This document shows, piece by piece, positions 25,820 through 38,562 of a stretch of 64,000 nt of DNA. A model generated the notes under the pieces. It saw only the letters and a program-made list of their open reading frames with translations. It was not told where the DNA came from and made no database searches. The first letter of the stretch is position 1. Every line of letters begins with the position of its first letter. The stretch comes from Blattabacterium cuenoti (GTDB taxonomy: Bacteria > Bacteroidota > Bacteroidia > Flavobacteriales > Blattabacteriaceae), in the NCBI RefSeq assembly GCF_014252395.1, contig NZ_CP059219.1, forward strand, positions 110,610 through 174,609. The letters are read 5' to 3'. The position numbers and the translations under genes are program-made.

Positions 25820-26392
25820 ATGGAATGGATCAATTCATTAATCAGTTGTTTTATGATACTTTTTAGCATTATAGATATATTAGGAAATGCTCCCATAATT
25901 ATGGGATTTAAATCTAAAGGTAATATTATAGATACTAAAAAAGTTATAACGACTTCTCTTGTTATATTTTTATCTTTCCTATTTTTAGGACAACCTTTAC
26001 TAAAAATTATTGGAGTAGATGTTCACTCATTTTCTGTAGCTGGATCTATTGTATTGTTTGTTATTGGTTTAGAGATGATACTAGGAGTAGATTTTCATAA
26101 AGTAACAGAAAATGCTCAAACTTCTATTGTGCCAATAGCTTTTCCTCTTATAGCTGGTCCTGGATCTTTAACTACTTTAATTTCATTAAGAACAACTTAT
26201 GATACAAATATTATTCTTTTATCTCTTATTCTTAATATGATAGTAGTTTATTTTGTAATAGATCAATGTGATTTTATAGCTGAAAAAATAGGAAATAGTG
26301 GTTTAGATATTTTAAAAAAAATATTTGGAATTGTTTTATTAGCTTTTGCAGTTAAAATTTTTGGAGCTAACGCAAGTCAATTATTTCAATAA
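25820..26392 (+). CDS. MarC family membrane protein
   Basis: A roughly 190-residue integral membrane protein with about six hydrophobic helices. Family signs are FMILFSIIDILGNAPIIMG near the N terminus, GSIVLFVIGLEMILG, and the NPLIAGPG-like block FPLIAGPGSLTTLIS. MarC proteins have no firmly established transport substrate. I place the start at ATG 25820; a TTG at 25814 is also possible. It stands alone between the UMP synthase and the convergent rnpA, whose stop it overlaps by 7 bases. Confidence 0.88.
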   Translation: MEWINSLISCFMILFSIIDILGNAPIIMGFKSKGNIIDTKKVITTSLVIFLSFLFLGQPLLKIIGVDVHSFSVAGSIVLFVIGLEMILGVDFHKVTENAQTSIVPIAFPLIAGPGSLTTLISLRTTYDTNIILLSLILNMIVVYFVIDQCDFIAEKIGNSGLDILKKIFGIVLLAFAVKIFGANASQLFQ

Positions 26393-26736
26393 CATTTTAT
26401 TTTATTCAAAATTTTTTTAACAGAATCATCTATATTTTTATAATTAGGAAAATATAAAGTTTGATAAATAAAAATTACATAATAAATTTTATCTTTTTTT
26501 TTAAAAATACATTTATTTAAAAAAAAAGAAGCCTTTAATAAACGTTTAATTCTATTTCTAGAAACAGATTTTCTAAATTTTTTTTTTTTTACTAAAGTTC
26601 CAATTAAATTTATAGATGAATGTTGCTCATTATTTCTTTTTTCTATAATAAAAACAGAAGATATAGGATATATAAATAAATATTTTCCATTTTTTATTAT
26701 TTTTTTTAAATAAATTTTTTTTAATTTTGTTTTCAT
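26386..26736 (-). CDS. rnpA: Ribonuclease P protein component
   Basis: The protein cofactor of RNase P, 116 residues and highly basic. The RNR motif is visible as [19 protein letters not shown] near residues 52–70, which contacts the RNA and the pre-tRNA leader. The rest is diverged. Its ATG overlaps the fbp stop codon by four bases, so translation is probably coupled. The RNA partner rnpB lies 11 kb upstream in the window; rpmH, a common rnpA neighbour in bacteria, is not adjacent. Confidence 0.92.
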
Positions 26737-29910: not shown

Positions 29911-30326
29911 ATGAAATTTATTAAAAAATATGATGATATAGCTTATATGAAACTTGCTATTGAGCAATCAAAATTATCTTTTTGTAAAAAAAAAAAGTAG
30001 GTGCTATTATTGTTAATAATAATAAAATTATATCTAACGGATATAATCAAACTCCTAATGGATTTGATAATATATGTGAAGAAAAAAATGGTTCTACTAA
30101 ATGGTATGTAATACATGCAGAAGCAAATGCTATTTTAAAAATATCGTCATCTTATTTTTCTTGTGAAAAAGCTTCAATCTATATAACACATTCTCCATGT
30201 AAAGAATGTAGTAAATTGATTTATTTATCTAAAATTAAAAGAGTTATATATTTATATAAAAAAAATGATAACGGATTATCTTTTTTAAAAAAATTAAAAA
30301 TAAAAATAAAAAAACTTATTTTTTAA
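29911..30326 (+). pseudogene. dCMP deaminase, reading frame broken at an A11 tract (possibly slippage-rescued)
   Basis: Translation from ATG 29911 runs 29 codons and meets TAG at 29998, just after eleven consecutive A (29986–29996). One added A restores a 138-residue protein ending at TAA 30324–30326. That protein has the zinc and proton-transfer motif HAEANAIL, the second zinc motif SPCKECSKLI, and flavobacterial dCMP deaminase wording (CK...VGAIIVNN, NGYNQTPNGFDNICEE, TKWYVIHAEA). No other lesion is visible, so this may be a recent break or a gene read through by polymerase slippage. The enzyme would make dUMP for ThyA, also in this window. Confidence 0.88.
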
Positions 30327-35462: not shown

Positions 35463-36416
35463 ATGAAGGGGATTAAAATATTGGCGCCAGCTACTGTAGC
35501 TAATCTTGCTTGTGGATTTGATGTTATTGGATTAGCTTTAGATTTTCCAAAAGATGAAATTTTTTTATATAAATCTAATATACCAGGAATACGTATTAAT
35601 AAAATAGATGGAAGTTCTTTACCTAAAGATCCAAAAAAAAATGTAGCATTCGTAGCTTTACAATATTTTTTAAAAAAATATAAACAAAAACAAAAATTTG
35701 AAAAAAAAGATCAAATAGGATTTGATATAGAACTTATTAAAAATATTCATCCTGGAAGTGGAATTGGATCCAGTGCAGCTAGTGCTGCTGGTGTTGTTTT
35801 AGGAGCTAATATTTTACTAGGTAATCCTTTTAATACTATACAATTAATACGTTTTGCTATGGAAGGAGAACGTGTAGCAAGTGGATCTGCTCATGCTGAT
35901 AATGTAGCTCCTGCTATCATGGGAGGTTTAACGTTAGTTAGAAGTTATAATCCTTTAGATATCACTAAATTACATTCTCCTAAAGAATTATGGGTTAGTA
36001 TTATACATCCACAAATTGAAATAAAAACATCAGATGCAAGAGAAATATTAAAACAAAAAATATTAATGACAGATGCTATTAAACAATGGGGAAATATAGG
36101 GGCATTAGTAGCAGGTTTATATCAAGAAAATTATGCTTTGATAAGTAGATCTTTAGAAGATGTTATTGTAGAACCTATACGAGCAATGTTAATTCCAGCA
36201 TTTTATGAATTAAAAATAAGATGCAAAGAAATAGGAGCTTTAGGTGGAGGTATTTCTGGTTCAGGTCCTTCTGTTTTCATGTTAAGCAAAGGAAATTATA
36301 CAGCAAAAAAAGTTACTGAAGTAATGAATTATGTTTATTCTCCATTAAAAGTGGATTATAAAACTTATACTTCTCCTATTAATCATTTAGGAGTTAAATG
36401 GTTAAAAATTAAATAA
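35463..36416 (+). CDS. thrB: Homoserine kinase
   Basis: ThrB phosphorylates homoserine for threonine synthesis. The 317-residue GHMP kinase shows the N-terminal LAPATVANLACGFDVIGLAL, the ATP loop HPGSGIGSSAASAAGVVLGAN near residue 100, GSAHADNVAPAIMGG and the C-terminal LGGGISGSGPSVFML. It lies between thrA (5 bases) and thrC (17 bases), all in the same direction, forming one operon. Confidence 0.97.
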   Translation: MKGIKILAPATVANLACGFDVIGLALDFPKDEIFLYKSNIPGIRINKIDGSSLPKDPKKNVAFVALQYFLKKYKQKQKFEKKDQIGFDIELIKNIHPGSGIGSSAASAAGVVLGANILLGNPFNTIQLIRFAMEGERVASGSAHADNVAPAIMGGLTLVRSYNPLDITKLHSPKELWVSIIHPQIEIKTSDAREILKQKILMTDAIKQWGNIGALVAGLYQENYALISRSLEDVIVEPIRAMLIPAFYELKIRCKEIGALGGGISGSGPSVFMLSKGNYTAKKVTEVMNYVYSPLKVDYKTYTSPINHLGVKWLKIK

Positions 36417-36433
36417 ATAATTTATAAAATATT

Positions 36434-37762
36434 ATGTTATATTATAGTTTAAAAAATAATAATAATTTTGTTTCTTTTGAAAAAGCTGTTTTAAAAGGAT
36501 TAGCTCCAGATGGAGGATTATATATACCAGAATATATTCCTATATTAAAAAAAAACTTTTTTGATCAAATTTATAATTATGATATTTTTACAATAGCTAT
36601 ATCTGTTATAAAACCTTATATAGGTAAATCTATACCAGATGAATATATATCTAATATTATTTACGATACTTTAAATTTTCCATTTCCTATGATAGAAATA
36701 CATGATAATATTAGAGTATTAGAGCTTTTTCATGGACCTACTTTAGCTTTTAAAGATGTTGGAGCTAAATTTATGTCCGAATGTTTAAGTTTTTTTTATA
36801 AAAAAATAGGAAAAAAAATAACAGTTTTAGTAGCTACTTCAGGAGATACTGGAGGAGCTGTTGCTAAAGGATTTCATAAAAAATTAGGAATTGAAGTTAT
36901 TATTTTATATCCATATAATGGAATTAGTTCATTACAAAAAAAACAAATTTCTTCTTTAGGAGATAATATATTAGCTATAGAAATTAATGGAAATTTTGAT
37001 GATTGTCAAAATATGGTTAAAAAAGCCTTTTTAGATAAAGAAATACAAAAAAAATATATTTTAACTTCGGCTAATTCTATCAATATAGCTAGATGGATAC
37101 CTCAAATGTTTTATTATTTTTTAGCTTATAGACAAATAATAATAGAAGAAAAAAAAAAACATCCTATAGAATTAATTTTTTCAGTTCCTAGCGGAAATTT
37201 TGGAAATATTTGTGCAGGTATGATGGCTAAAAAAATGGGGTTACCCATAAAGTTTTTTATAGCTTCTACAAATATTAATGATACTATTCCTAGATTTTTA
37301 AAATCAGGAAAATATAATCCTACTTCAGTCAAAAAAACTATATCAAATGCTATGGATATATCTAACCCCAGCAATTTTTCTCGTATATGGAACTTTTTAT
37401 ACAAAAAAAATATAATTGAACTAAAGAAAGTTTTATATTCTTATCAATTTACGGATAAAGAAACTATAGATATTATAGAAAAAGTATATAAAAAATATAA
37501 CTATATGTTAGATCCACATGGAGCTATTGGTTATTTAGGTCTTAAAAAATATTTACAAAAATTTAATAATACGTTATATAAAACTATTTTTTTAGAAACT
37601 GCTCATCCTATTAAATTTTTAGATAAAATGCCGTATTTTATACAAAAAAATATTGTATTTCCTAAACAAATGAAAACATTTTTTAATTCAAAAAGAAAAA
37701 TAAAAAAAATATCTATGATTAATAATTTTAACATATTTAAAAATTGGCTATTAGAAAAATAA
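36434..37762 (+). CDS. thrC: Threonine synthase
   Basis: A PLP enzyme converting phosphohomoserine to threonine, 442 residues. The PLP lysine is in HGPTLAFKDVGAKF near residue 110. The phosphate-binding loop ATSGDTGGAVAKGF and the SANSINIARWIPQMFYYF block identify the family. The C terminus is ordinary. It ends the thr operon, converging on thyA with 5 bases between stops. Threonine is an essential amino acid for insects, which fits a provisioning symbiont. Confidence 0.97.
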   Translation: MLYYSLKNNNNFVSFEKAVLKGLAPDGGLYIPEYIPILKKNFFDQIYNYDIFTIAISVIKPYIGKSIPDEYISNIIYDTLNFPFPMIEIHDNIRVLELFHGPTLAFKDVGAKFMSECLSFFYKKIGKKITVLVATSGDTGGAVAKGFHKKLGIEVIILYPYNGISSLQKKQISSLGDNILAIEINGNFDDCQNMVKKAFLDKEIQKKYILTSANSINIARWIPQMFYYFLAYRQIIIEEKKKHPIELIFSVPSGNFGNICAGMMAKKMGLPIKFFIASTNINDTIPRFLKSGKYNPTSVKKTISNAMDISNPSNFSRIWNFLYKKNIIELKKVLYSYQFTDKETIDIIEKVYKKYNYMLDPHGAIGYLGLKKYLQKFNNTLYKTIFLETAHPIKFLDKMPYFIQKNIVFPKQMKTFFNSKRKIKKISMINNFNIFKNWLLEK

Positions 37763-37767
37763 AAATT

Positions 37768-38562
37768 TTAAATAGCTACATCTCCTTTAATATGAGAAAA
37801 TGGATTATAATTTATTAATTTGAAATCTTCAAAAGAAAAATTAAAAATATTTTTTACAGATGGATTAAGAATCATTTTTGGTAATGGTCTTGGATTTCTA
37901 TTCATTTGTATTTTAACTTGTTTAATATGATTTTTATAAATATGAGCATCTCCAATAGTATGGATTAATTCTTTTTCTTTTAAATTAAGAGTTTTAGCTA
38001 ACATAGTTAATAATAATGCATAAGAAGCTATATTAAAAGGTAAACCAAGAAATATGTCTGCGCTTCTTTGATATAAAAGAAGTGATATATTTTTTTCTAA
38101 TACATAAAATTGAAATAGTGTATGACAAGGAGGAATTGACATTTTTTTAATCATTCCTACATTCCAAGAAGAAACTATTAAACGTCTTGAATTAGGTTTA
38201 GATTTAATTTCCTTAATAACATTAACTATTTGATCTATAAAATGACCTTCATAGGTAGGCCATCTTCTCCATTGCAATCCATATATTGGACCAAGATCTC
38301 CATTTTTATTTGCCCATTCATTCCAAATATATACTTTGTTTTCTTTTAAATATTGTATATTAGTATCTCCTTTTAAAAACCATAATAATTCATAAATAAT
38401 AGATTTTATATTTAATTTTTTTGTGGTTAAAAGAGGAAATCCTTTATTTAAATCAAATCTCATTTGATATCCAAATATACTTATTGTTCCTACTCCAGTA
38501 CGATCCTTTTTATATTTTCCATTTTTCAATACATTTTTTATTAAATTTAAGTATTGTTTCAT
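37768..38562 (-). CDS. thyA: Thymidylate synthase
   Basis: ThyA methylates dUMP to dTMP with methylene-THF. At 264 residues it is the standard size. Visible motifs: [21 protein letters not shown], the nucleophile in [14 protein letters not shown] (Cys near residue 146), [21 protein letters not shown] and DAHIYKNH. The upstream source of dUMP matters here because the dCMP deaminase gene in this window is frameshifted. Confidence 0.97.

Follow-up and report, generated by a model that had tools for sequence, protein, structure and literature searches.

Blattabacterium cuenoti carries a dCMP-deaminase-like gene whose reading frame is broken directly after a run of eleven adenines, and the enzyme is probably still in use: slippage of RNA polymerase on this run, adding a single A, would restore the frame. 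The tract is common among Blattabacterium genomes, the gene carries no further damage, the region downstream of the break is under purifying selection and the off-frame runs are uninterrupted. That a product is made, and that the correction takes place during transcription rather than translation, is suggested by these sequence patterns.

The gene is located in a window of 64,000 nucleotides (the whole stretch of DNA analysed) of a genome, G000, that consists of a single contig of 626,430 bases. This genome was compared with 48 relatives in the genus, giving a set of 49 Blattabacterium genomes. The locus is composed of the following features:

29911..30000, plus strand: N-terminal reading frame (dCMP-deaminase-like gene), closed by KKKK-stop with TAG as codon 30
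29986..29996, plus strand: A11 tract, forming with the next G the heptamer A_AAA_AAG in the zero frame; of equal length in 30/49 genus genomes
29997..30326, plus strand: C-terminal frame (V, 108 amino acids and a stop), carrying the zinc motifs HAE and PCxxC; PF00383
30329..30411, plus strand: tRNA-Leu(CAA), beginning 2 nt past the deaminase stop

The ATG of the gene is found at 29911 and a Cys codon (TGT, 29983-29985) lies directly 5' of the A11 run. The TAG at 29998-30000 closes a frame of 29 codons (M...SFCKKKK*), in agreement with the initial annotation, which placed a stop at codon 30 right after eleven A. One base over, the frame opens with V (29997-29999), reads VGAIIV... and has 108 residues after this V before the stop that ends at 30326. 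The enzyme of 138 residues that was predicted to result from one extra A is thus recovered (25+4+1+108 = 138), including the zinc-site residues of the HAE and PCxxC motifs. The G000 copy shows no further lesion, as had been claimed.

The downstream part scores 69.2 bits with PF00383 (Pfam), against a cut-off of 25. The best PDB match of the intact copy in genome G034 is 4p9c, a deoxycytidylate deaminase (E 3.8e-26), and the nearest solved relatives are dCMP deaminases. The cut-off of the ComEB equivalog TIGR02571 (219.45) was missed by the fragment (63.1 bits) as well as by the intact G034 copy (79.6 bits), and the gene is therefore labelled dCMP-deaminase-like, not ComEB. Judged by these scores it appears to be a relative of the dCMP deaminases, akin to ComEB but outside the equivalog. 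The CKKKKVGA junction was said to fit the spacing of the family. Indeed, C-x4-VGA spacing is present in all 15 loci of free-living relatives examined, mostly as CTRKKVGA or CTRKQVGA, and also in the in-frame Blattabacterium copies. Since the spacing occurs in 15/15 free-living loci, four residues between C and V are taken as ancestral and a 12-nt tract as the in-frame state. In 41/49 genomes a tRNA-Leu(CAA) gene follows the deaminase gene at a distance of no more than 300 nt, an arrangement that suggests joint transcription and processing of one transcript by RNase P.

The deaminase gene has been kept throughout the genus, with a match to the downstream fragment in 49/49 genomes. Comparison of the tract between relatives, a check named in the initial annotation, showed A11 in 30 genomes, A10 in two (G046 and G006), A12 in nine, an in-frame 12-nt tract interrupted by one or two non-A bases in seven (G001, G041, G047, G040, G007, G023 and G043) and a scrambled tract in one. 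In the latter genome, G045 (L160/L032), a portion of the N-terminal coding sequence is duplicated beside the tract, and the Cys codon that precedes the run elsewhere is lost, reflecting either a true rearrangement or a misassembly. The frame counts exclude G045 and cover the other 48 of the 49 genomes. The gene is off-frame in 32 of 49 genomes, always at the same site, and in frame in 16, while all 49 have an open downstream frame that includes HAE and PCxxC. The off-frame phase is clearly skewed, with 30 copies one base short (A11), two with A10 and none with A13.

All 32 off-frame copies have an uninterrupted run of A10 or A11, lengths within the range (A/T runs of about 9 or more) in which slippage is expected. 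None of these 32 tracts is interrupted, compared to 7 of the 16 in-frame tracts (Fisher p 1.6e-4, a value that does not correct for kinship). A tree was built from 11 neighbouring proteins (3939 columns) and analysed with a two-state (in/off) model, which attributed an estimated 71% of the branch length to the off-frame state. Six interruption events were counted on this tree by hand and all of them fall in the in-frame part, with a chance probability of ~6e-4. Confinement of interruptions to in-frame copies is the pattern expected if an off-frame copy needs a long run for its rescue. The minimum number of changes of the in/off label on the tree is 11, and a number this low or lower was reached in 15 of 200 label shuffles. 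One clade on long branches, consisting of G008, G029, G038 (NZ_CP059220.1), G014 (NZ_CP059204.1), G010, G022, G009 and G039, has A11 in 8/8 members. Because the frame state flips this often, A11 appears to be tolerated and does not represent one frozen ancient event; we read this as tolerance, with A11 and A12 being nearly equivalent for the cell.

Selection beyond the break was analyzed between sister genomes. Among ten pairs in which both copies are A11, nine showed a dN/dS past the tract of 0.19-0.33, overlapping the values of rlmB, tadA and thyA in the same pairs, and thus purifying selection in off-frame lineages. The exception is the A11 pair G005/G013 with a dN/dS of 0.88; its dS is low (0.086), and the rlmB control is high as well, at 0.70. 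The A11/A10 pair G019/G046 showed a value of 0.25 for the deaminase gene. Accumulating lesions in relatives had been named as an outcome that would count against a working gene; the opposite was found, with the frame open in 49/49 genomes and a low dN/dS between off-frame sisters. With at least 11 changes of state, single A11 states may be young, and a share of the measured selection may predate the frameshift and stem from in-frame periods. Taken together, the tract states of 49 genomes, the interruption pattern and the dN/dS values indicate that the break is not an isolated assembly error and the gene not a dead pseudogene, but that some rescue acts on it.

Broken genes are otherwise rare in this region. 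A background scan of 56 other window genes in 21 genomes yielded 1029 intact and 29 broken copies (of 1058 scored), while 102 were absent and 16 were cut by an edge. Among the 29 broken copies 14 are rnpA and four more are single-tract frameshifts, located in gene 6507+ of G024 and G038, in pssA of G026 and in rnhA of G020. Six of the 29, all in gene 8678-, appear to be differences in the start site instead of true breaks. Long runs are mostly kept in frame, with 108 sense A runs of at least 11 in 1022 intact ORFs. In view of this low background, homopolymer frameshifts are rare in the region save for the deaminase gene and rnpA, and 32/49 copies off-frame at one site, versus 29/1058 broken elsewhere, exceeds chance. 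Some other genes of the region vary between the genomes. In G026 (L146) ureC and ureAB matched only as fragments in the syntenic region, and these urease genes may have been lost or moved. The orthologues of 35463-37762, a GHMP-kinase (homoserine-kinase-like) and a threonine-synthase gene, are absent from the region compared in 7/49 genomes and broken in G047.

The second gene with a recurrent tract frameshift encodes the protein component of RNase P:

26386..26736, minus strand: rnpA (RNase P protein), PF00825; intact in G000 with A13

Of 46 genomes of the genus, 34 have rnpA off-frame, with the break at an A-rich, variable A/T tract around codon 50. The two off-frame phases are represented by 17 copies each, with eight copies in frame and four unparsed, so that rnpA lacks the phase bias of the deaminase gene. 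Downstream of its tract selection is weaker and mixed, dN/dS ranging from 0.12 to 1.00 in the 14 usable pairs of 17 chosen (two were dropped for lack of a parsed copy, and G019/G046 aligned over 3 codons only). In Blattabacterium strain Bge rnpA was described in 2009 as the sole pseudogene of the genome, and an A-T point mutation was proposed (PMC2768785, in extract). Like the deaminase gene, it belongs to this genus and has a frame broken beside an A tract, here near codon 53. However, the extract proposes a point mutation, whereas the present comparison shows a variable tract that is off-frame in 34/46 genomes.

The pattern in the deaminase gene is best explained as follows. The C-T-R-K-K-V-G-A loop, inferred from outgroups to be ancestral, would have become C-K-K-K-K-V-G-A in the AT-rich Blattabacterium, encoded by a tract of 12 A. 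Replication slippage would repeatedly shift this tract between A12, which is in frame, and A11, which is one base short. In A11 genomes RNA polymerase would slip back on the run and add one A in a fraction of the transcripts, and these 12-A transcripts would be translated into full-length enzyme. If enough enzyme is made from either A11 or A12, A11 would be tolerated and become common, an off-frame run would have to stay uninterrupted and both halves of the gene would remain under selection at the protein level. Insertion-dominated slippage, as in Buchnera, would rescue A11 best, which matches the excess of A11 over A10; a replication bias towards shorter runs could be another cause of the absence of A13. 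The view of the initial annotation, a broken gene kept working by slippage, is thus supported by the frame that is open in 49/49 genomes and by the low dN/dS, with the slippage step itself proposed on the basis of these data. It is fairly unlikely that A11 is favoured and not just tolerated, with an insertion-biased site throttling the deaminase genus-wide and the fixed frameshift serving as expression control that has been retained while the cockroach symbionts radiated.

The heptamer A_AAA_AAG is a slippery site of the dnaX type. A -1 ribosomal frameshift on this heptamer before the TAG, by which tRNA-Lys moves back one base and GTA GGT is read, would yield an identical protein and requires no change of the RNA. 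The heptamer is in the zero frame in 30/30 A11 copies, by construction (TGT+A11+G), and the prevalence of A11 over A10 (30 versus 2) is what a phase-specific -1 shift predicts. Nevertheless we consider this explanation somewhat unlikely. An upstream SD-like stimulator was found in 0/30 A11 copies, and alifold analysis of these 30 copies gave no conserved downstream structure (G000 alone folds at -15.8 kcal/mol). The A10 copies of G046 and G006 would be beyond rescue by a -1 shift. The first five A's would be dispensable for such a shift, yet the A11 tracts show no interruptions there; this is a weak argument, as only about two AAG at codon 1 are expected from an AAG usage of 6.8%. In E. coli dnaX the programmed frameshift site has the identical heptamer in the zero frame; the deaminase gene differs in that no stimulators were found and in that the shift would mend a broken gene instead of yielding a second product. 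Finally, rnpA is off-frame in both phases while one fixed ribosomal shift can serve only one of them. Polymerase slippage is thereby favoured as the general mechanism in Blattabacterium, provided that RnpA is still made.

The gene might also be dead or dying, its copies being young pseudogenes that arise from recurrent A12-to-A11 replication slips while dUTPase supplies dUMP and makes the enzyme dispensable. The lability of the frame state (at least 11 changes, with a weak kinship signal in the labels) and the presence of dUTPase in part of the genus agree with this. It is quite improbable all the same, as off-frame is the majority state, a second lesion occurs in 0/32 off-frame copies, off-frame sisters are under purifying selection and interruptions are restricted to in-frame copies. 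Homopolymers are the classic site of miscalls, and a sequencing or assembly error, or a within-host mixture of A11 and A12 called as A11, would produce the same G000 sequence. A true tract of 12 A, which according to the initial annotation would have overturned its reading, is nonetheless very improbable given exactly A11 in 30 genomes, including NZ_CP059220.1 and NZ_CP059204.1, and A12 in nine others. Moreover, the 108 in-frame A runs of at least 11 in intact genes indicate that the assemblies resolve such runs. Initiation downstream of the tract, producing a shorter enzyme, would retain all zinc-site residues. It is hardly credible, since 25 of the 32 off-frame copies, including that of G000, lack an in-frame ATG, GTG or TTG between the tract and HAE, the codons upstream of the tract can still be recognised and the full-length protein is encoded in a single frame in 16 genomes.

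Frameshifts in poly(A) tracts of Buchnera and Blochmannia are reportedly rescued by transcriptional slippage (Tamas et al. 2008; Wernegreen et al. 2010). These cases resemble the deaminase gene in that, in an obligate, AT-rich insect symbiont, one indel has altered a long A run, in a gene that is otherwise intact and selected, with a break common to several species. They differ in that the present case concerns the Bacteroidota, with 32/49 species genomes off-frame at one site. The claim that the mechanism had been reported in other A+T-rich insect symbionts is borne out for Buchnera and Blochmannia (PMC3017870, PMC5009743 and PMC4389277, all in extract). In such systems corrected transcripts have been measured, with slippage on poly(A) runs restoring 12-50% of the transcripts of two other symbionts (PMC5009743, in extract); the Blattabacterium case is proposed from genome sequences. 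Of 157 transcription insertions in Buchnera, 151 fell within homopolymer runs; single-base insertions made up 80% of the insertions and longer runs showed higher rates (PMC5574713, in extract). Eight homopolymer frameshifts were described in Blochmannia vafer, where anatomy and interpretation are alike: visC is broken at 11 A, and erfK and ytfM are independent or reverting cases. That study covered three genomes, while the 49 compared here allow interruptions and changes of state to be counted (PMC3017870, in extract). For Walczuchella, a flavobacterial symbiont, slippage has also been mentioned as possible (PMC3971599, in extract). A report on slippage or on the deaminase gene in Blattabacterium was not found in the open-access literature. 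The phenomenon is thus known, but its breadth in the Bacteroidota, not found in open-access papers, and the interruption pattern are unusual. If polymerase slippage indeed acts on the deaminase tract, a phenomenon of gammaproteobacterial symbionts extends to the Bacteroidota, roughly two thirds of the Blattabacterium species compared would encode the deaminase only via slippage of polymerase (or ribosome), and pipelines that call such genes pseudogenes would misjudge symbiont metabolism. With A11, A10, A12 and interrupted states in one genus, slippage efficiency, phase bias and selection become measurable between natural sister strains.

The consumer of dUMP is encoded at some distance from the deaminase gene:

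37768..38562, minus strand: thyA (thymidylate synthase)

Loss of the deaminase was claimed to affect the dUMP supply for the product of thyA, which is present at 37768-38562. This point is weaker, because dUTPase is plasmid-borne in the genus and was found above cut-off in 12/49 genomes, in most of them on a second, small contig. The plasmid location of dut in Blattabacterium has been described (PMC6039017, in extract). In the G000 genome a dCTP deaminase was not found, nor was a dUTPase above cut-off on its single contig; assemblies of one contig may just lack the dut plasmid. The dCMP deaminase may therefore be one of two routes to dUMP, and its loss is not necessarily lethal. Three related genomes, G002, G015 and G016 (L134, L142 and L138), have a dUTPase on the main contig, ~4.7 kb upstream of the deaminase gene. 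The dUTPase match of G016 contains one TAA. The main-contig position in these three genomes is consistent with plasmid integration.
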